Shown here in pieces: positions 10,117-20,005 of a DNA stretch of 64,000 nucleotides. A model generated the notes under the pieces. It was not told where the DNA came from. It was given only the letters and a program-made list of their open reading frames with translations, and searched no databases. Each line of letters starts with the position of its first letter. Positions within the stretch are counted from its first letter, which is position 1. The DNA is from Fidelibacterota bacterium. GTDB lineage: Bacteria; Marinisomatota; Marinisomatia; Marinisomatales; UBA1611. Location: contig PBAR01000028.1 of the NCBI GenBank assembly GCA_002718285.1, positions 1 through 64,000 on the forward strand. The letters are read 5' to 3'. A program made the position numbers and the translations under genes.

Positions 10117-10937
10117 CGGCTATAAGTTGATTGATAATATCGGTGGGATTTTTTTGCTAAATTAAATAAGGTACGTTTATCAATCATTTTTGTACTCTTA
10201 TGTTCATTATGAATGACTTCTAATTCAGGAAAATAAGTAATAGGAATATTTAATTTTTTTGCTATCTCAGCAATAGTTAATTCTTCGCCATACATTTCAA
10301 AATTATCGTCAAAATATCCTCCATTCAAAAAAAATGAACTTGAAAATATTATTGCACTACCATGTGCAGCATATATTTGCCTTTTTCTACTAATATTTTT
10401 TTTATTCAATCTGAATCTAAATGCACGCAAAAAATTTTTTATAAATAACATTAAACGGGAGAATGAAAATGAAATAAAATAAAGATTCCAATAAAGCCTA
10501 TCCAATCTCGATAATGGTGAAATTAAAAATGGGTTTAAATTCTCTCCTTTTGAATTAATAATATTTGGTGCAATAATTGGGTATTCTTTCACATCAATTT
10601 TCGATAATATTTTAATAAAATTACGATCTGAAAAAGTAATATCATTATTACAAACAAGTACCCAATCAGGATATGATCCTTTTATATTTTTTATGGTATT
10701 AATTACTTTTTTTGCAGCTGGCCAATAATATAAGTTTTTTATATATGAGAAAATTTTTATGTCAATTTCTGAATTATCAATAATTTTTTCCAATTCAATA
10801 TTGCTAATTTTAGTTGCCTCATTATCAGCTATACCAACTTTAACTGATTCAAAATTTTCAACTAAGGATAAAGAATCAATTAAGGATTTAGTCGGTGCAG
10901 TATCGTGAAAATTAACGGTAATTAACCACAACTGCAT
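10113..10937 (-). CDS. GT2-family glycosyltransferase
   Basis: 274 residues, GT-A fold. The first strand is LWLITVNFHD (3-12), the acidic metal site is the NNDITF segment near residue 96, and a GAHGSAIIFS-like acceptor region (AAHGSAIIFSSSFF) and a YFDDNFEMYGEE segment follow, as in rhamnosyl- and related GT2 transferases. It adds one sugar to the growing lipid-linked repeat unit on the cytoplasmic face. ATG at 10937. It overlaps the upstream polymerase gene by 26 nt and the downstream GT4 gene by 4 nt. Donor and linkage cannot be read from the sequence. Confidence 0.85.
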   Translation of the reverse strand: MQLWLITVNFHDTAPTKSLIDSLSLVENFESVKVGIADNEATKISNIELEKIIDNSEIDIKIFSYIKNLYYWPAAKKVINTIKNIKGSYPDWVLVCNNDITFSDRNFIKILSKIDVKEYPIIAPNIINSKGENLNPFLISPLSRLDRLYWNLYFISFSFSRLMLFIKNFLRAFRFRLNKKNISRKRQIYAAHGSAIIFSSSFFLNGGYFDDNFEMYGEELTIAEIAKKLNIPITYFPELEVIHNEHKSTKMIDKRTLFNLAKKSHRYYQSTYSR

Positions 10938-12177
10938 ATTTGGCTATAAATAAAATTATTAATAAAATAAACCAAGCAAATAAAATACTATTGTAATGAA
11001 AAATACTAATTAAAGGTGAATAAATTGTAAAGGCATAAAACATCGAAATAGGTATTGTGTTTACAAAAGACATAGCGGAATTATTTTGAAAAATTGATTG
11101 AATAATATAACCAATTGGAAAAGCAATAAAAATTGCTCCAGGAATAGAAAAATCTATTATTATACCTCGAAATGCAGTGAAAATATTAGTTGATATATCC
11201 TTAGCAATATAGATTGAATCATAAAAACCTAATGGTCTATCTAAAATTCCAATTAGATTAAATGGACCAGCAAAGGTAATTAATCCATTATTTAGTTTAT
11301 AATTCATATCACTTATAATCCACTTAGAAAATGCTGGAAGATAACCAAAAAAGTAGGCACGAATTCGATCAAATAATAATTCAAATATTATTGTATCCGT
11401 TCCTTGCCTAAGCCATTGAATTAAAATAAAAAACAAAGTAAATATTGTTAGGGAAGCTATACTTGATATAATAACTCTAGAATATGATTTTTTTCTATTT
11501 ATTTTATTTTTTGGGTTAACCATATAGGTGCTCAGCCATGAAGAGAAAAAAAGAACTAAACCTAAAAGCATGCTAGTTCTAGCACCTTCTATAATTCCTA
11601 ATAAAATTGATAATAATAATGGTAGAAATGAAATGATCTTAATTCTTTTTGATTGATCATTATAGCCAAATATTATTCCACCAAGTAAATTCGCAGGATA
11701 GATAAAATAGAGACTGTATTTAATTATGAAAGGATAATTCAATAAACCGCTATAACGATCCACTGATATCATGTTTGGAATAATTATCCATTCGCTAAGA
11801 TAATTACCTAAACTATATATATCAGTAGCATGTTTGATCAGTAGGAATATTCCTAATAAACTAATGCTAGAAAAAAATAGCATCGCATGAATAAGAAATT
11901 GATAGTTAAAATGAATTTTTGTGTTAAAAAAATATTTTTGATTAATCGGATTATTTGAATAAGCAACTATTGATCCAGATGCTAATGACATAGAAAAAAT
12001 AGCAATAAACCATATTGCTAAGTGATCTATTTTATAATCAGAAGCAAATAGAATTGGTACAATTGAAAAAAAAGACCAGCAAATACAAAAAAACGCGCCA
12101 GGAGAAGTCCAAGTTTTTGTAATAAATTTTGTTAATATTGAAATTATAATAAGTAAAATAATTGGTAAGATAATCAT
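10912..12177 (-). CDS. Wzy-like oligosaccharide repeat-unit polymerase
   Basis: A 421-residue integral membrane protein with about 10-12 predicted transmembrane segments and no soluble domain. A periplasmic loop with the sequence YFFGYLPAFSKWI, followed by a segment ending NGLITFAGPFNLIG, resembles the O-antigen/oligosaccharide polymerase family (EpsG/Wzy-like). It would join repeat units on the periplasmic side before chain-length control by the adjacent Wzz protein. Start ATG at 12177, 4 bp after the flippase stop. The order flippase, polymerase, transferases is typical of a Wzx/Wzy locus. Wzy families are poorly conserved, so the call rests on topology and context. Confidence 0.78.
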   Translation of the reverse strand: MIILPIILLIIISILTKFITKTWTSPGAFFCICWSFFSIVPILFASDYKIDHLAIWFIAIFSMSLASGSIVAYSNNPINQKYFFNTKIHFNYQFLIHAMLFFSSISLLGIFLLIKHATDIYSLGNYLSEWIIIPNMISVDRYSGLLNYPFIIKYSLYFIYPANLLGGIIFGYNDQSKRIKIISFLPLLLSILLGIIEGARTSMLLGLVLFFSSWLSTYMVNPKNKINRKKSYSRVIISSIASLTIFTLFFILIQWLRQGTDTIIFELLFDRIRAYFFGYLPAFSKWIISDMNYKLNNGLITFAGPFNLIGILDRPLGFYDSIYIAKDISTNIFTAFRGIIIDFSIPGAIFIAFPIGYIIQSIFQNNSAMSFVNTIPISMFYAFTIYSPLISIFHYNSILFAWFILLIILFIAKYAVVVNYR

Positions 12178-12181
12178 GGTT

Positions 12182-13447
12182 TTATAATGATTTAATTTTA
12201 TTCATTGAATAAATTGAATAAATACCAGTTATACTACAGTATATAAAAGCAGATAATAAAGAAGAGTAGGCAGTTGCACGCCCCCCTATTATTGGTAAGA
12301 AATAATAATTTCCAATTATATTTATTATTAGAGAAGGAATAATTGCCATCGTCATTAGACTTGTTTTTTCCATTAATTCTAACATTTTATGAGTTAAAAA
12401 AGATAGTTGCCATAATAATCCGCTCGCTAGCAATGGCACTATAAGTCTTCTTGATTCTGAATCAAATCCTGGAATCATAATTCCCATTAATAAAAAAGTA
12501 AAGTCATTAAACTTCCAGACAATATATAAAATAATAACACCTATAATAAAAACTAATGAAATGCTTTGATTAATTAACCGAGTAGCATCATGATAATTTG
12601 ATTTATTCCATAAACTCATAATCCTAGGATGAAGTGCCATTATAAAAGGAAATAAAGTTAAAGAGAAGAAGCGCGTTAATAGCTCTTGAGTACTAGCATA
12701 TAATCCTAAGTATTGATCTGGAAGATAAATATTAATAAAAAAACGATCTAAAAATGGCAATGCAAGTCCCACTGCAAACCACAAAGATAGTGGCGTACCG
12801 TAATAAGCCCATTTTTTTAAAAGATCATTATTTTGTTTAGCAATTAGATTTTTTATATTTCTGAATCGATAATTTTTAAATGACGTTTTAATCAAAAACA
12901 TCATACTTAATAGGAATGAAAAACTAACTCCCAATAATAAAAATTCCTTATTGGAAGAAATAATTTTCATTAAGAATAATGGAATTGCTAGCGACAAGGA
13001 AGCTTGTATACTAGTTAGAATAAAAACCTTTTTTGGTAAAATTTTTGACTGGAATAAAGTTTTAACATAATTAAAACAACCCATCATAATTATCAACATT
13101 ATTGAAAAGCAGTAAATTTTGATTGAAAGAGGTTGAAAATAAATAAAAATAGATAAAATTAATAAACAAGATACTATAGATATAAATATAGCTTTTGTCC
13201 TATTGTTATTATAGCTATTTAAAATATGATCTTTCGAATAATAACGCAATGTGGACTGATTTAGCCAGCCAAAGCCAACTGCTACAAATAAAGTACATTG
13301 AGACAAAATGAAACTATACTGACCATATTCTTCTGTACCTAAGATTCTTAAGAATATTAATACTGAAGAAAGGCCAACTATACCAGGGATTATTTTTGAA
13401 AGAATATAGAGAAAAGTTTCTTTAAATAATAAACGGTCTAATATCAG
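12182..13447 (-). CDS. wzx: Wzx-type polysaccharide flippase, probable CTG start
   Basis: Flips lipid-linked repeat units across the inner membrane. The conventional TTG at 13306 gives 374 residues and cuts off the first membrane helix. The frame stays open upstream and encodes the canonical flippase N-terminus: LLFKETFLYILSKIIPG, then LRILGTEEYGQYS. With the CTG at 13447-13445 the protein has 421 residues, a normal Wzx length with about 12 membrane segments. There is no in-frame ATG, GTG or TTG before that region. The CTG overlaps the TGA of the Wzz gene as CTGA, and AAGG lies 9 nt upstream. An ATA at 13444 is the next alternative. Confidence 0.82.
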   Translation of the reverse strand: MILDRLLFKETFLYILSKIIPGIVGLSSVLIFLRILGTEEYGQYSFILSQCTLFVAVGFGWLNQSTLRYYSKDHILNSYNNNRTKAIFISIVSCLLILSIFIYFQPLSIKIYCFSIMLIIMMGCFNYVKTLFQSKILPKKVFILTSIQASLSLAIPLFLMKIISSNKEFLLLGVSFSFLLSMMFLIKTSFKNYRFRNIKNLIAKQNNDLLKKWAYYGTPLSLWFAVGLALPFLDRFFINIYLPDQYLGLYASTQELLTRFFSLTLFPFIMALHPRIMSLWNKSNYHDATRLINQSISLVFIIGVIILYIVWKFNDFTFLLMGIMIPGFDSESRRLIVPLLASGLLWQLSFLTHKMLELMEKTSLMTMAIIPSLIINIIGNYYFLPIIGGRATAYSSLLSAFIYCSITGIYSIYSMNKIKSL

Positions 13448-14667
13448 TCTGCAGTACCTTGTATATAATTTTCACGGAAATAAATTGTAAATATGCTTGC
13501 AAAAATACCAAAAAATATTGAAAAAACAATACTCAAACCTCTTCTTGGACGGGTTAGTTTAGCTGGTATACTTGGGGCATCAATAATTTGTACCATATCA
13601 TCTCTTTCAATTTCGTCAATTTTTGCCTTTTCGTGCTGAGTTTTCAATGTTACATATAAACTATTTTGAAGATCTAATTCCCGACCCATCTCTTGTACGC
13701 GCATTGTAAGAGAAGGTGATGATGATATATTACGATTATATTCGCGGAACTCCCTTAGTTCCTGTTCCATTTTTTTCATGCCGGAAGAAACCTCTTTGAG
13801 CCTATCTTCAATAAAAAGTTTTTTTTGCGTTACTCTATTTGTTTTTAATTGACGTTGAATCTTACCTGATTTTTCAATTAACCTATTTGATAACTCAGCA
13901 GAAAATAATGGCTCAAAGGCAGAAACTTCTAACGTAACTACAGGGGAAAGGCGATCTTTAATAATATTAATCATTTTTCTTAATTCTATTATTGCTCTAT
14001 TGTTTTGGTTCTGCTCTTGATACTTTGATAGAGAATGCTCACTAATAATTATTTGCTTCAACGATTTTGTTCCGTACTTTTTTGTTTCATATTCTTCATC
14101 CAATACTTTCGATAATAAATTATTACTAATTACGATTTCAGGGTAAATCTCATCCCATGGAACAGAACCACCAATTGTAAGTGGAATATTTATTCCAAGT
14201 TGCGCTGCGACACCTGAAAAGCCACTCGAACTAGATCCATCTTCTGAAATAGGCAAAACTTTAGATACTGAAGTATAAATGGGGTCAGCAATAAAAAACA
14301 CATATATCACTGTTATTCCCATCGATACCAATGGTAATAACAAGAGTGTTTTTATATTATTTTTTATTATTTTTTTGTTTTGTTGCCAAATAAAATGTTT
14401 TGATTTATGAGGTTCATAGTTTTCGTCATTTTTTTGACTAATTGATCCACTCTGAGTAATTATAGGATTATCAAAATTTTTTGCATTTAAAACTTCTGTA
14501 GTGTATTTCATTAAATGTTTTGGTGGAATCTCTCCAGCTTTAATCCAACCAGATAGAGTTTGTGGAGTTACATTAAAATATTTTGCAACTTGATAATTGC
14601 GCCGAAACCCAAAATGGCGCATTACTTCAATTACAACCTGTTCAGCTGTTAATTCTTTATCTTTCAT
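13444..14667 (-). CDS. Wzz-family chain-length protein with an N-terminal helix-turn-helix domain
   Basis: 407 residues. Residues about 8-58 form a Cro/CI-like helix-turn-helix (YQVAKYFNVTPQTLSGWIKAG at about 25-45 is the core), followed by a polar linker (60-100). Transmembrane helix 1 spans about 105-127, then comes a Wzz periplasmic domain with a long coiled coil (about 280-350). The proline-rich IDAPSIPAKLTRPRRG motif (362-377) precedes transmembrane helix 2 (377-397). There is no tyrosine-kinase domain. The Wzz part sets polymer length together with Wzy and Wza. The HTH would face the cytoplasm and could bind DNA or a protein partner. ATG at 14667; the stop overlaps the flippase CTG. Confidence 0.88.
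   Translation of the reverse strand: MKDKELTAEQVVIEVMRHFGFRRNYQVAKYFNVTPQTLSGWIKAGEIPPKHLMKYTTEVLNAKNFDNPIITQSGSISQKNDENYEPHKSKHFIWQQNKKIIKNNIKTLLLLPLVSMGITVIYVFFIADPIYTSVSKVLPISEDGSSSSGFSGVAAQLGINIPLTIGGSVPWDEIYPEIVISNNLLSKVLDEEYETKKYGTKSLKQIIISEHSLSKYQEQNQNNRAIIELRKMINIIKDRLSPVVTLEVSAFEPLFSAELSNRLIEKSGKIQRQLKTNRVTQKKLFIEDRLKEVSSGMKKMEQELREFREYNRNISSSPSLTMRVQEMGRELDLQNSLYVTLKTQHEKAKIDEIERDDMVQIIDAPSIPAKLTRPRRGLSIVFSIFFGIFASIFTIYFRENYIQGTAD
13457..13460 (-). promoter_or_regulatory. Shine-Dalgarno-like AAGG for the flippase
   Basis: AAGG within the last codons of the Wzz gene, 9 nt before the CTG at 13447. It supports a coupled, non-ATG start for the flippase. Confidence 0.45.
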
Positions 14668-14679
14668 AACTGATTTTTA

Positions 14680-15903
14680 TTATTTAGATATTCCATCAGG
14701 ATTTGTTCCTACTAATAAAATATCAAAAAGACTTGCGCCGAATGATTTTGTAGAGCCAACAAAAACAAGATTATTATTAGAAGATTCAAATAAAGACCAA
14801 CCCCAATCATCTTCATCCATTGATCCATAAGAATTACTCCAAATTATATTTCCTGAATTATCCAATTTTGTCATGAAAGCATCATTTTTACTTTTATTAT
14901 TTGGTTGTCTAGAAGACCCTACGACTACAACACCTCCCAAATTCGTTGTAGTTGCACTAAATTGATTTCTTTGATGACTATTAGAATTAAGTCTACGCTG
15001 CCAATCAATATTTCCCGATCCATCAATTTTGATTATTGTAGGTTGAAAAACTTCAGGTGAATTGACAGAATTGACACCTGAACATAAATAATAAAATCCT
15101 TCTGCCGATTTTGAAATAGTAAATATTGATTGTGAAATTTGGCTTTCATCAAGCAATTCTTTTTCCCAAAGCAAATCTCCTTTTTCATCAATTCGTAAAA
15201 TTAGACCATTTAATGAACCTTTGCTATATCGATCTCTTGCGCCAACTAATATAAATCCCTGATCATCTAATTGAATTATATCATAGGCCCATTCATGATT
15301 AGGGAAAGCTTTATTTCCATATGCTTTCTCCCAAATTTTTTCACCATTTTGGTCGATTTTTACTAAATATATATCCGTATTACCAGAAGATATACCAGGA
15401 CTATTTGATGATCCTGCAATAATATATCCTCCCCCAATTACCTCTATAGCTGAATAGGCAACTTCCCACATACTTCCGCCGTATACCTTCTCCCATTCTT
15501 TGTTACCATGGAAGTCTGTTTTTATAACAAACATCTGCTGACTATTGCTATATGACCATGTATATCCAACAAATAAAAATCCCCCATCTGATGTGGAAAC
15601 GACATCTAAACCAGCTTCATTGTCTCCTCCGCCAAAATATTGTTCCCATTCCATAACCCCACGAGTATTGGTTTTAATAGCCCATAAATCAGATTTTCCT
15701 CCTATTTCAGGAGCTCTTTGACCAACAACAATGATTCCATCATCAAATTGCGAATATGAAGCATTCCAGCCATAATCATACCCAACAGTTCCAAAAGTTC
15801 TAGAAAATCCTGGCGGAATATTGCCCTGCCACTGATAATCTTTTCCTATATCATCACAAGCAAAAAACAATAAAATTGATATAAAAGTTATGTGTCTTTT
15901 CAA
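14680..15903 (-). CDS. Repeat-containing (beta-propeller-like) putative lipoprotein
   Basis: 407 residues. The N-terminus has a short hydrophobic signal ending at C16 (FFAC followed by DD), a lipobox-like site, though the -3 residue is Phe. The rest consists of six or seven repeats of about 50-55 residues, each with an I-K-T/I-D-x-x-G-x-x-x-W-E-K core and an x-G-G-F-I-x-V-G strand. This pattern suggests a beta-propeller. Similar repeats occur in secreted proteins of Bacteroidetes and Marinimicrobia. The start is a TTG at 15903 directly abutting the TAA of the wza gene, so the two are translated together. Role in export, perhaps as a periplasmic or surface accessory, is inferred from position only. 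Confidence 0.7.
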   Translation of the reverse strand: MKRHITFISILLFFACDDIGKDYQWQGNIPPGFSRTFGTVGYDYGWNASYSQFDDGIIVVGQRAPEIGGKSDLWAIKTNTRGVMEWEQYFGGGDNEAGLDVVSTSDGGFLFVGYTWSYSNSQQMFVIKTDFHGNKEWEKVYGGSMWEVAYSAIEVIGGGYIIAGSSNSPGISSGNTDIYLVKIDQNGEKIWEKAYGNKAFPNHEWAYDIIQLDDQGFILVGARDRYSKGSLNGLILRIDEKGDLLWEKELLDESQISQSIFTISKSAEGFYYLCSGVNSVNSPEVFQPTIIKIDGSGNIDWQRRLNSNSHQRNQFSATTTNLGGVVVVGSSRQPNNKSKNDAFMTKLDNSGNIIWSNSYGSMDEDDWGWSLFESSNNNLVFVGSTKSFGASLFDILLVGTNPDGISK

Positions 15904-17802
15904 TTACTTAGTCGTTGTGTTTGCAAGTATAGCAATAGAGACTAGAGAAGTAATAAGGCTACTAACTTGTTGAATTCGATCTGGAAAATAATTTTGTTCA
16001 GAAATTGGCTTTTCACTCACCCTAATTATACTTCCCGGCAATATAGATTCATTGCTTTTTTGATTTATTCGAGTCGCTTCACCATAAGGAGTAATATAAA
16101 CAATATGTTTTTTATCACCATAAGCCGTCAATCCTCCGGCAAATGATAAATAATTTTTTGCTGAAGCGTTTGCTCTCCATTCAAAATTACCAGGGTTATG
16201 AACTTCACCTTCTACCTTGACTGTGCCTAATGAAGGATTAGCAATAATAGTATCCCCAGGTGTTAAAGTCATTTCACCATTGCTAGAACCAAAAATGAGC
16301 GTATCTCGTTTAACAACTACATTGTTAATATTAGTTGTTTTTTGAAGTCCTCCTGCTCGAGATATAATTGAATTTATGGTTTCTTGATCTTGAATCAATG
16401 GGTAAGTACCTGGTGAATTTACTTCACCATCAACTATGACCATCCTTGAAAGTGTGAAATCTTCAAAAAGGTGAATAGAGATATGATCGTTAGGAAAAAA
16501 TAAAATTTCATTGCTATTTGCTAGGTCAAATGGAATTGGTTGATATTGATTTTTTATTCTATCACGCCTAATTAATTCTGCATCTCTTACATTATTAAAA
16601 TCAACACTCAAAATATTAAGTATTTGTTGAAAAGTTAGATTTTTAATCCATGGCATTTCAATATTAGACCTATTTGTAACAGAAATTGAAATTGATTTAA
16701 TTGGGTCATAGTTAATGGGGATAATTAAACTGTCCCCATTAATAAGCTCAGTTTTACTAAAATCTGATTTAGAAACAAATAAATTAGATGATTGAGACCT
16801 TGCTATAATTACTTGATTATTACCATTAGTTTTTTCACCACCTGCATATTTAATCAAGGTGGAAATATTATCAGTTTCTATTATTTCAAAATAAGATGGA
16901 TTTAATATGTTTCCAGTTAAAGCAACAAAATTCCCACGAGGCGGAACAACAATAATATCACTATCAAAAATTGGTATTTGATCTATAAGGCCAATCCCAG
17001 TGATTAATGGATATAAATCAAGAGTATCTACAATAACACCATTTCGCTGTAAAAAAACATTTCTTAAGGTTCCTATTTCGCTAATCCCGCCTGCTAAAAT
17101 TAAAATATTTGGTATGCTTGTTGATGGATTAACAACATAATTTCCAGGATATAAAACATGCCCAGATACTGAAATATTAATATTTTTTGTCTTACCCACA
17201 GAAAACTCTAAAAACGATAATTGAGGATCTGATTTTAATGTAGCATATATACTGGTAAATCTGTTTAATACATATTCTTTAGCTTGAGATTGATTTTTAC
17301 CACCTAGATAAAGCAAGCCCACATTATCAATAAATATTGTTCCATCACGATCAAGAATTTTTCTTTCATGTTGCTCAGCTTGACCCCATATAGAAATAAC
17401 CACTTCATCACCAAACCCAAGAATATAATTTGAGCTTACATTCGCATTATCAATAAATTGAATAGAATCTCTAAGCGAAAAATAATTGTAACCAAAATGA
17501 GATAGAGGAGGAATACTATCAGAGTCCACAAGTAGTCGATTTAATTCTTTTAAATCTTTTTGAATAACACTCATTTTTTCGCGATAATATTTAGTTAGAT
17601 CACCTGGTCTAACTAATAATCTAACTGGCCCATCTTCGGGATCTTTTTCAGCCTCAAGTCCTTTTTTGACAATTTCATTTGATTGCTGTTCAACTTTAAG
17701 CTTCCCATAAGTATCCATAAATTGCTTTAATTCTTCCGCAGTTTGGCCACTAGTTAAACTTATAGAGATAAAAAATAATAATATTCGTATTTTATTAAAC
17801 AT
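15904..17802 (-). CDS. wza: Wza-like polysaccharide export protein with several SLBB domains
   Basis: Outer-membrane/periplasmic channel for capsule or exopolysaccharide. 632 residues: signal peptide about 1-19; a Poly_export domain about 125-205 starting at YILGFGDEVVISIWG; SLBB domains near 208-245, 292-322, 460-490 and 538-570 (each with a G-x-V/I-x-x-P-G/S-x-Y/F pattern followed by an AGG turn); and a hydrophobic C-terminal segment that may be the membrane-spanning helix. E. coli Wza has 379 residues and fewer SLBB repeats, so this is a long variant. A lipobox cysteine is not evident. ATG at 17802. It lies between the Wzi gene (54-bp gap) and the lipoprotein. Confidence 0.92.
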   Translation of the reverse strand: MFNKIRILLFFISISLTSGQTAEELKQFMDTYGKLKVEQQSNEIVKKGLEAEKDPEDGPVRLLVRPGDLTKYYREKMSVIQKDLKELNRLLVDSDSIPPLSHFGYNYFSLRDSIQFIDNANVSSNYILGFGDEVVISIWGQAEQHERKILDRDGTIFIDNVGLLYLGGKNQSQAKEYVLNRFTSIYATLKSDPQLSFLEFSVGKTKNINISVSGHVLYPGNYVVNPSTSIPNILILAGGISEIGTLRNVFLQRNGVIVDTLDLYPLITGIGLIDQIPIFDSDIIVVPPRGNFVALTGNILNPSYFEIIETDNISTLIKYAGGEKTNGNNQVIIARSQSSNLFVSKSDFSKTELINGDSLIIPINYDPIKSISISVTNRSNIEMPWIKNLTFQQILNILSVDFNNVRDAELIRRDRIKNQYQPIPFDLANSNEILFFPNDHISIHLFEDFTLSRMVIVDGEVNSPGTYPLIQDQETINSIISRAGGLQKTTNINNVVVKRDTLIFGSSNGEMTLTPGDTIIANPSLGTVKVEGEVHNPGNFEWRANASAKNYLSFAGGLTAYGDKKHIVYITPYGEATRINQKSNESILPGSIIRVSEKPISEQNYFPDRIQQVSSLITSLVSIAILANTTTK

Positions 17803-17852
17803 AATTATTAATAATATTCGTGTTTAATTTAATATTATTCGAATAAATCGTA
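17777..17852. repeat. Short direct and inverted repeats upstream of and into the start of the wza gene
   Basis: The 12-mer AATAATATTCGT occurs at 17777-17788 (inside the first wza codons) and again at 17810-17821, 33 bp apart. A palindrome TTATTCGAATAA follows at about 17835-17846. The 54-bp wzi-wza gap is among the longest in the locus and is extremely AT-rich, so a promoter or operator may lie here. AT-rich chance repeats are an alternative. Confidence 0.25.
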
Positions 17853-17856
17853 AATA

Positions 17857-19398
17857 CTAAAAATTAATAATTCTCGATATTGTTAATATTAGGGTATTTG
17901 TTGCTCTAGAATTAGCTAAGTTACCTTTTGAGGCATCAATTGGGTTTCCCATATCATCTTCATAAAAATAGTCGGGAAATCCAAGAAATGCTTCTTGCTG
18001 TTTTTCATAATAAAGCCCGATCCAGGTTCCATTGTATTTATATCGTGCGTCAAGCCTTAATTCCATTTTAACTTCTGCTGGTCTGTGTGTTACGATGCCA
18101 TGCCTTTCATAATTGAGCGCAGGTATTATCATTAATCTATCTGATAAGTAACCCATATATATATACCAATCATCTGAGTCTGATCCTGAATGAGCCCCCC
18201 ATCTCCTACCATAATAGGAACTAAATTGATAGGTATTTCTTTGGTACCATGTGCCCGGACCTCCCGTCCTATGCCTTGAAGTATAGGTAATCATCAAATT
18301 TGTCCATTCAGCACCCCAAATCCAATTTTTATTTGCACCGATACCATAATCTCTAACACCGATCACAGTAGCCATGCTATGATCAGGCTGCGATAAAAAA
18401 TCTGCGAAATACATTCTATTGTCATTAAATCCAAATTCAGCGTATAATTTTAGATCTCTTTCCGGTAATGTCACATTTATATAACCAGATAGAGTTTGAT
18501 CCCAAGCATCGTGCCCACCAACCGTATATTCAGAGTCTAATAAATCACTAGTAAATAACCCTTCAAAAACAATTTTTCGAGCATCTGCCTCTTTCCATTC
18601 ATAACCAGAAAGAAGCTTTCTTCCACCTGTCAAATAATTTCTACTAAATCCAACAGAAAGAATTGCTGATCCATACCATGAAATCTGACCATTAAGTGAT
18701 GTGAAATATTTTGCGTTTTCACCAAATGATTCATTAATCTTTGAAAAACTATATAATCCATAAAGGCCAATATTCCCAAATCTAATTTCATGTATTGTAC
18801 CTATAATTTGAGAAGGAAATGGCTTAGTATTATTTGTCATCTGCAAACCTGAATGAACACCCCCACCCCACCATTTATTTCCATTGTTCCATCCAAAACC
18901 AAAACCTTTATAATGGATAAAAGCAAGAAAATTTCTAAAACCACTTGATTCAGGTCTGATACTTTCTGGGAGTTCTTTATCATTAAGAACAGAAAATGAA
19001 CCTTCACGATCAATACTATTTACAGATAAAAAATTATTGTTGATAATATATGGCTCTGCCAGAAACGTAAAATATTTACTATTCATTGCTAATGCTATTG
19101 AATTAAAACTACCCATTCCTTTTGAAAAGTATCTAACATCCATATTCTCTTGATTAGGGACATTATCATTAAAATAAAATTCATTTTTTATTTGAACCAT
19201 AAATAAAGTTGAATCTGTTTTATGAAATAATGGTCTAAACATGTTTGAATTCATAGGTTTTTCACCATCAAATTGCGATTTCTCATACAATAAAAGATGA
19301 TAAGGATCAGACGGTACATGTATTTGAGAATAAGATGATGAAACAAATGAAATATTTATAAAAAGCATTATAAAAATGTTTTGCCTAAATTTATTCAT
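17857..19398 (-). CDS. wzi: Wzi-family capsule assembly outer-membrane protein
   Basis: 513 residues. A signal peptide covers about 1-25 (ends SSSYSQ). The rest shows alternating beta-barrel strands and ends in an aromatic residue (IINF), as outer-membrane barrels do. The segment WWGGGVHSGLQMTNNTKPFP (about 176-195) is the hallmark of the capsule_assembly_Wzi family, whose members anchor or organise the capsule at the cell surface. ATG at 19398 is only 25 bp from the divergently transcribed plus-strand gene, so its promoter must overlap that gene or transcription must arrive from the WecA side. It is first in the export core Wzi-Wza-lipoprotein-Wzz. Confidence 0.88.
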   Translation of the reverse strand: MNKFRQNIFIMLFINISFVSSSYSQIHVPSDPYHLLLYEKSQFDGEKPMNSNMFRPLFHKTDSTLFMVQIKNEFYFNDNVPNQENMDVRYFSKGMGSFNSIALAMNSKYFTFLAEPYIINNNFLSVNSIDREGSFSVLNDKELPESIRPESSGFRNFLAFIHYKGFGFGWNNGNKWWGGGVHSGLQMTNNTKPFPSQIIGTIHEIRFGNIGLYGLYSFSKINESFGENAKYFTSLNGQISWYGSAILSVGFSRNYLTGGRKLLSGYEWKEADARKIVFEGLFTSDLLDSEYTVGGHDAWDQTLSGYINVTLPERDLKLYAEFGFNDNRMYFADFLSQPDHSMATVIGVRDYGIGANKNWIWGAEWTNLMITYTSRHRTGGPGTWYQRNTYQFSSYYGRRWGAHSGSDSDDWYIYMGYLSDRLMIIPALNYERHGIVTHRPAEVKMELRLDARYKYNGTWIGLYYEKQQEAFLGFPDYFYEDDMGNPIDASKGNLANSRATNTLILTISRIINF

Positions 19399-19423: not shown

Positions 19424-20005
19424 ATGAAAAGTAAATTTTTTACAATAATATTAATATCCTCAATAGTTTGGGCATCTGCCGGATATGATAATGGAACATC
19501 AACGGGAAGAGGAAAGTTTAAAATAGATATCACTTGGAACCCTTTTAAAAAATTTGATTTTGGTCAAAGTTATATTGTAATGAGCTATGGTTTCACAGAA
19601 AACTTTGATTTTCATGGATATATATCTAAGCATCCAGAGGGATTTTATACATATTATTATGGATTATTCTATCAATTTTTTGATTCAGATAAATTGGACT
19701 TAGCAACCGCAATTGGCGCTAGAAAGAATCTTCAAGATAAAAAAATAAATCATCTTTTTTTACCACAATTATTATTTACGCGTAAAGTTACTCAAAATTT
19801 AAGTTTTGGCGGAAGCATTGTTGGTGTGAGTGATTATTCAACAAAAATAAATACGGCTCTTGATATAGGGGCTACCTATAAGTTAAAATACAAATCAAAT
19901 GCTATTGAAAGTATTTCCCTTAGTTTTGGGGGCTTTCATCCAGCTACTTGGAAACCATCCTCATTTTTTTTGCCGACATATAGTATTGACATAAAATTTA
20001 ATTAG
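19424..20005 (+). CDS. Small predicted outer-membrane beta-barrel protein, unknown function
   Basis: The only plus-strand gene in the window. 193 residues; signal peptide about 1-19 (ends WASAG), then short amphipathic strands rich in Tyr, Phe and Gly, and a C-terminal SIDIKFN as in small barrels. I do not recognise a family. Its ATG is 25 bp from the Wzi start, and its last 8 bases overlap the 3' end of the WecA-family gene, so it is squeezed between two minus-strand blocks. No good ribosome-binding site is visible before the ATG. Neighbour context suggests an envelope role, possibly linked to the polysaccharide. Confidence 0.7.
   Translation: MKSKFFTIILISSIVWASAGYDNGTSTGRGKFKIDITWNPFKKFDFGQSYIVMSYGFTENFDFHGYISKHPEGFYTYYYGLFYQFFDSDKLDLATAIGARKNLQDKKINHLFLPQLLFTRKVTQNLSFGGSIVGVSDYSTKINTALDIGATYKLKYKSNAIESISLSFGGFHPATWKPSSFFLPTYSIDIKFN

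Follow-up and report, generated by a model that had tools for sequence, protein, structure and literature searches.

Polysaccharide co-polymerases of the Wzc (PCP-2a), WzzE (PCP-1) and KpsE (PCP-3) type reach only a short way into the cytoplasm with their N-terminus or else bear a kinase at the C-terminus, and their periplasmic domain is known to work together with Wzx, Wzy and Wza. If they are thought to report on their state at all, this is usually believed to happen via a tyrosine kinase, and to our knowledge the reporting of assembly or activity of surface-polymer export machines at the level of the genes is poorly known. Transmembrane transcription regulators (TTRs) are a known and widespread kind of protein, including members with two or more membrane helices and members with associated partners such as ToxS, TcpH and VtrC, as described in the relevant passages of a survey (PMC10269533).

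We describe a protein, HTH-Wzz, which we interpret as a Wzz-type co-polymerase that doubles as a TTR, giving this reading a probability of roughly 0.6. Its gene (13444..14667; this and all following genes are on the minus strand unless stated otherwise) lies in the window, by which the whole analysed stretch of 64,000 nucleotides is meant, and is an open reading frame of 407 codons with Pfam similarities to Wzz, GNVR and HTH_17. According to the AF2 models, it encodes a helix-turn-helix of four helices (HTH, residues 8–64; 14476..14646), a disordered cytoplasmic linker (residues 67–93; 14389..14469; pLDDT below 50 at residues 67–91 of the whole model), a first membrane helix (residues 105–126; 14290..14355), a periplasmic co-polymerase domain (residues 130–372; 13552..14280) with two long helices (residues 253–310 and 318–353) and a second membrane helix (residues 376–402; 13462..13542), so that two membrane helices flank the periplasmic fold. 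The Wzz domain passed its curated Pfam cut-off (33.7 versus 25.5 bits), and the best Foldseek matches of the whole model were Wzc (E 5.0e-12), KpsE (3.1e-10) and WzzE (9.0e-10), which in most of the top rows start at residue 92–98, shortly before the first membrane helix. Sequence profiles and model together confirm the predicted product as a complete Wzz-type co-polymerase without a kinase to which an N-terminal HTH has been added. A DNA-binding-type domain, its HTH_17 similarity being below the curated cut-off, and membrane helices are predicted to be present in one chain.

The chain stops five residues after the second membrane helix in the model. With neither a C-terminal tyrosine kinase nor an adjacent kinase-like gene, the protein is not a BY-kinase co-polymerase of the Wzc type, and a Walker A pattern scan of all window frames of at least 100 amino acids revealed no kinase-like P-loop, the only two matches being in the putative lipoprotein encoded next to HTH-wzz and, by reading, in an apparent 2-hydroxyacid dehydrogenase. 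The missing kinase would fit a different role for the HTH, namely that of a protein-binding module which docks a cytosolic assembly factor or a glycosyltransferase in place of the absent tyrosine-kinase partner and makes no contact with DNA.

Since Foldseek of the whole model reported the co-polymerase part only, the HTH was modelled separately from the remainder of the protein (mean pLDDT 86.6). Phage N15 Cro, including its DNA complex, and 186 CI were among the best matches of the isolated domain, with E-values of 0.05–0.35 and probabilities of 0.99 and 0.96. The identity of the HTH is about 31–33% to N15 Cro and 20% to 186 CI, and N15 Cro was also found by sequence alone (E 0.0043, residues 14–51). 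The predicted fold is confidently placed nearest to N15 Cro, despite the weak structural E-values. The original prediction, an HTH-like domain ahead of the first membrane helix of a Wzz protein, is hence confirmed with respect to both the fusion and the fold. Two observations count against a DNA-binding function: The HTH of the window stays below the curated Pfam cut-offs (HTH_17 24.4 of 27, Phage_CI_repr 13.4 of 22 and P22_Cro 15.0 of 30.2 bits), as does the HTH of the related locus L001, and the net charge of residues 8–60 is only about +3 by hand count.

Searching 5.8 billion proteins yielded 196 relatives at E ≤ 0.001; the listing covers 120, all but four of them (116) having at least 370 amino acids. 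Four of the 120 carried an organism name, all of them Candidatus Marinimicrobia, and no relatives were found among viral contigs. Among the matches listed, the residues PQTLSGW (P35–W41) of the predicted recognition helix (residues 35–44, PQTLSGWIKA; 14536..14565) are invariant in 116 of 116 homologues, and the basic residues R22, R23, K43, K50 and K54, on whose conservation the original prediction partly hinged, are retained in 113–115 of them. In detail, the mean column entropy for 68 representatives below 80% identity was lowest in the recognition helix (0.22 bits), followed by the HTH (0.61), the periplasmic part (0.94) and the linker (3.27). The mean pairwise identity of the same representatives was 79% for the HTH, 69.5% for the periplasmic domain and 13.7% for the linker, and the HTH identity exceeded the periplasmic one in 2077 of 2278 pairs.

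This conservation contradicts the view that the head is a functionless passenger domain or an artefact of assembly or gene calling. Some relatives are indeed head-less, as this view would have it, but the 116 aligned full-length homologues, a set gathered via words shared with the query and thus under-representing head-less relatives, keep the head and keep it at 79% identity as compared to 13.7% for the linker, and we give the view almost no credence. The invariant surface residues of the HTH would equally be expected from an invariant protein partner, which counts against a regulator and in favour of the protein-binding module. The linker, disordered and free to vary, would fit a protease-accessible tether from which regulated proteolysis releases the head as a soluble regulator. 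Membrane regulators may come under proteolytic control; a title cited within PMC8546550 names an FtsH-regulated transcription factor bound to the membrane. However, residues 61–95 contain no invariant residue and therefore no conserved cleavage motif, and we consider such a release to be very unlikely.

With the HTH alone as the query, matches were obtained in 25 of 199 genomes from the phylum. The 37 rows comprised seven HTH-Wzz proteins of the window type (from six genomes), one CI-like HTH-Wzz and 29 others, of which 20 are open frames of 234–261 amino acids; the eleven of these whose sequences were inspected all read as an HTH followed by a helical stretch and a PAS-like domain. The heads of these HTH-PAS proteins are 39–44% identical to the window HTH (six aligned), and the sole protein tested with Pfam (L046) passed Phage_CI_repr (23.0 bits, cut-off 22) and remained below PAS_9 (19.9 bits, cut-off 27). 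No membrane helix was seen in those that were read, and their divergent neighbour genes are, by eye, unlike polysaccharide genes. In their sequence the HTH-PAS proteins look like ordinary regulators, which argues against the protein-binding module. Upstream of 8 of 11 non-duplicate HTH-PAS genes (L026, L030–L033, L035, L046 and L047), a set restricted to genes with the exact TPQALS motif, there is a TACTTGAATA-N22-TATTCAAGTA-like inverted repeat with fixed spacing. Shuffled sequences gave a mean of 0.23 and a maximum of 2 such cases, a comparison to be read with the motif being derived from the same sequences and the genomes being related. The repeat is a possible operator, and together with the HTH-PAS relatives it supports, without proof, the suggestion that the window-type head reads DNA.

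The architecture noted in the original prediction recurs across genomes. A profile of the whole fusion matched 90 of 130 genomes of the order, and 60 regions picked among the matches listed were fetched and considered together with loci L001–L007 and L050–L055. An N-terminal HTH or winged helix, in four sequence kinds, was found in 55 of the 69 co-polymerase ORFs of these fetched loci, mainly from one Neomarinimicrobiota order: 42 winged helix, six window type (two pairs being identical or nearly so), six CI-like and one HTH_3, with 14 head-less; the counts describe the fetched loci and not the phylum, and the classes were set by sequence patterns and by the length ahead of the first membrane helix. 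Cro, CI and HTH_3 heads are members of a single broad superfamily, so no more than two different head folds can be counted with certainty. Ten proteins were compared with Pfam, eight of them headed co-polymerases, of which three pass an HTH cut-off, namely the HTH_3 head (35.1 bits, cut-off 23), one of three winged-helix heads (HTH_Mga, 24.6 versus 23) and one of three CI-like heads (L081, Phage_CI_repr, 23.7 versus 22). The two other winged-helix and the two other CI-like representatives pass none, which counts against DNA binding. The genome bin G001 contains two co-polymerases with different head kinds, the second of them (L055:3534–4700) being the one with the HTH_3 head.

In the winged-helix kind, 14 of 22 invariant columns lie within residues 1–45 (15 proteins), which is its best-kept part. 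Within the phylum, 245 genomes were searched with the winged-helix Wzz profile, and at least 59 of them contained, counted by eye, a total of at least 60 places starting at model positions 1–3. Two outgroup searches, covering the winged-helix head only, matched 116 of 124 genomes in the phylum of L009's genome (Cloacimonadota) and 50 of 199 in that of L010's genome (Brocadiaceae), and none of the matches listed starts before position 48 and position 55, respectively. In a co-polymerase-only tree, the window type forms one clade (100/100) within a clade of 24 rows (99/99) that also holds six CI-like and eleven head-less rows. The head labels require seven changes on this tree, the least possible being four and the shuffled mean 26.2, with gain and loss of a head inseparable on it, and the winged-helix kind may have had a single origin. 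The eleven head-less rows so close to the window type indicate that the head is dispensable for the machine, which counts against a regulator. In four loci with a head-less co-polymerase, a separate gene lies ahead of wza (L085:2583–3392, L088:10908–11693, L089:3016–3822 and L094:7456–8247). The proteins of about 265 amino acids have an N-terminal stretch that is weakly DUF6538-like (14.0–20.9 bits, cut-off 27); those of L085 and L089, which were read completely, seem to cross the membrane once and have a further domain at the C-terminus. They are possibly separate membrane-bound DNA-binding proteins.

Heads of several families, a winged helix among them, occupy the same place on the co-polymerase and would have DNA as their simplest common target, and the recognition helix is best kept in both kinds examined for conservation. 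We regard the protein-binding module, with the missing kinase and the surface invariance on its side, as unlikely in view of these points. The membrane-tethered regulator suggested in the original prediction, there with a putative link to polymer length or assembly state, stands as the best reading, because DNA-binding-type heads recur on co-polymerases in the phylum and because soluble HTH-PAS proteins begin with a relative of the window HTH.

The genes around HTH-wzz provide the context of a Wzz machine, in which a presumed ring-shaped oligomer would work with Wzy and Wza, with wza, wzi-like and wzx genes adjacent. Directly upstream lies the gene of a putative lipoprotein (14680..15903) with, by reading, an FFAC-DD signal and a weak beta-propeller/PQQ_2 similarity (PQQ_2 23.8 bits, cut-off 27.6), preceded by a Wza-type SLBB polysaccharide export gene (15904..17802; SLBB, SLBB_2 and Poly_export) and a Wzi-like outer-membrane gene (17857..19398; Caps_assemb_Wzi 27.0 bits, below the cut-off of 30.1). 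Downstream follow a Wzx-type flippase (MatE; 12182..13306 as called by the ORF finder) and a multi-spanning protein without a Pfam match, which we name a probable Wzy polymerase (10912..12177) and which comes after wzx as in L001, L002 and L003. Because the wzx frame is open upstream to the end of HTH-wzz (13307–13443), as in L001, translation of wzx probably begins at a codon other than ATG close to 13443, with the 137 bp in between being coding. Nearly all genes between 407 and 63940 are on the minus strand (most ORFs judged by eye), a clear exception being a small outer-membrane-like ORF on the plus strand (19424–20005), and this part of the window looks like a single, very long stretch of surface-polysaccharide genes.

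The gene order, with names in the compared loci given by reading and not by Pfam, is wza, lipoprotein, HTH-wzz, wzx, wzy-like and glycosyltransferases in L001 and L002, and wzi-like, wza, lipoprotein and HTH-wzz in L007, while L003 and L005 keep the order from the lipoprotein onward. A lipoprotein homologue lies directly upstream of HTH-wzz in all six window-type loci that reach that far (L001, L002, L003, L004, L005 and L007, of which L003 and L004 carry identical co-polymerases). No match was found in the other 67 of the 73 loci searched, a number that includes L006, where the sequence begins within HTH-wzz and the place of the lipoprotein gene is not covered. This linkage makes the lipoprotein a possible periplasmic partner of HTH-Wzz. 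By the E. coli rule, which may differ in this phylum, a C-D-D signal suggests inner-membrane retention, and this would presumably apply to the lipoprotein.

The original prediction also named the DNA near 17803–17856 and 318–406 as regions where binding of the isolated head might be looked for, and a site near 17803–17856 is not supported. The direct repeat CGAATAATATT / CGAATATTATT (offset 21), located within the 54 bp before wza, was equalled by 180 of 1000 dinucleotide shuffles and the inverted repeat in 17803–17856 by 719 of 1000, and both were rejected as operators. Neither the sequence ahead of wza in four loci (the window, L001, L002 and L007) nor that ahead of the window's wzi yielded the inverted repeat of the HTH-PAS genes; the best candidates had 5–6 mismatches in total out of 20, or there were none. 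The exact 8-mer of its arm occurs at eight separate places in the window, seven of which are inside genes and one (35053) intergenic. The failed search for a site before wza and wzi counts against a regulator and would also be expected of a protein-binding module. Rfam gave nothing over cut-off in the window.

In a further reading, a DNA-binding head may mainly tether the polysaccharide locus to the membrane, a form of transertion in which synthesis and insertion of the machine take place at the site of its transcription, with no switching of transcription. For tethering it is enough that DNA is bound at the membrane, the genes flanking the fusion keep their order in the loci examined, and PMC9977878 proposes transertion for a secretion system of Vibrio. 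However, no site was found near the locus, and a linked lipoprotein is not called for by tethering, so that we consider tethering as the main function to be rather improbable.

In loci of the winged-helix type (L096, L099–L104, L107, L111 and L114–L116), wza follows a conserved leader some 180 nt long, GGGC..GCCCGGGC ... GGAATACTATCGATATAAACTGCGCCCAGTTTA..AAAGGCAA, which is absent from the window. Among 12 aligned sequences eight pairs were predicted, with a compensatory change in none, and the eight loci searched had no Rfam match over cut-off; the leader is a candidate structured RNA.

For HTH-Wzz as a membrane-tethered regulator we suggest the following mechanism. The periplasmic domain would assemble with the Wzx/Wzy/Wza machine like that of other co-polymerases, and the cytoplasmic N-terminus would bind DNA as a flexibly linked domain of the Cro/CI type. 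Once the co-polymerase has oligomerised, several HTH heads would come to lie together beneath one complex, and the occupancy of an operator, and hence transcription, would depend on the assembly or load of the export complex, with the lipoprotein encoded just upstream possibly serving as a ToxS- or VtrC-like periplasmic co-sensor. The targets would most likely be found in the own locus; like these, the DNA binding, the oligomeric state, the signal and the sign of regulation are parts that we infer. Tentatively, and with somewhat less than even odds, we extend this to the phylum: Neomarinimicrobiota may repeatedly have made the co-polymerase a regulator by placing different heads (Cro/CI, HTH_3 and winged helix) at the same position, so that a multi-headed membrane complex would write its own assembly or load onto promoters, with a lipoprotein co-sensor in the window subtype.

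If this is true, the DNA-binding head would constitute a one-protein route from the export machine to the genes, by which the structure of the machine feeds back on them directly. The same scaffold with different heads in related genomes makes the idea testable, head-less relatives being natural controls. In addition, a function is suggested for a protein that is conserved in uncultured marine bacteria and goes by the name of hypothetical or exopolysaccharide protein in databases.

Like Wzc, WzzE and KpsE, HTH-Wzz has two membrane helices and a periplasmic fold with long helices, and differs from them by the presence of the N-terminal HTH and the absence of a kinase. N15 Cro and 186 CI are soluble phage repressors, whereas the HTH-Wzz head would be attached to the membrane; the HTH-PAS proteins share a homologous HTH, which is followed by a PAS-like domain instead. 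The nearest functional precedent we know of is streptococcal CpsA, a LytR-CpsA-Psr protein for which DNA binding was reportedly described by Hanson et al. in 2011. CpsA is a membrane protein of a capsule locus and would share its reported DNA binding with HTH-Wzz, but has another fold and belongs to another enzyme class.

The open papers searched contained no report of an HTH-co-polymerase architecture or of a co-polymerase as the sensor of a TTR. The text of the TTR survey lacks the word Wzz, and its relevant passages name no co-polymerases (PMC10269533); the one paper found to name both Wzz and helix-turn-helix refers to separate genes, and the term DNA-binding is missing from the main text of a review on the chain length of capsules from 2025. 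ToxR, TcpP, CadC and VtrA/VtrC resemble HTH-Wzz in combining a cytoplasmic DNA-binding-type domain, a membrane helix and a periplasmic sensor, often with a partner protein. Unlike the OmpR/PhoB-type heads of these ToxR-type regulators, the head of HTH-Wzz is of the Cro/CI type, and an entire co-polymerase, with its two membrane helices and presumably still in its structural role, serves as the putative sensor. Since TTRs are known and a co-polymerase sensor was not found in the open papers searched, we judge HTH-Wzz to be a probable TTR, a kind already known, in which the co-polymerase as a sensor would be new.
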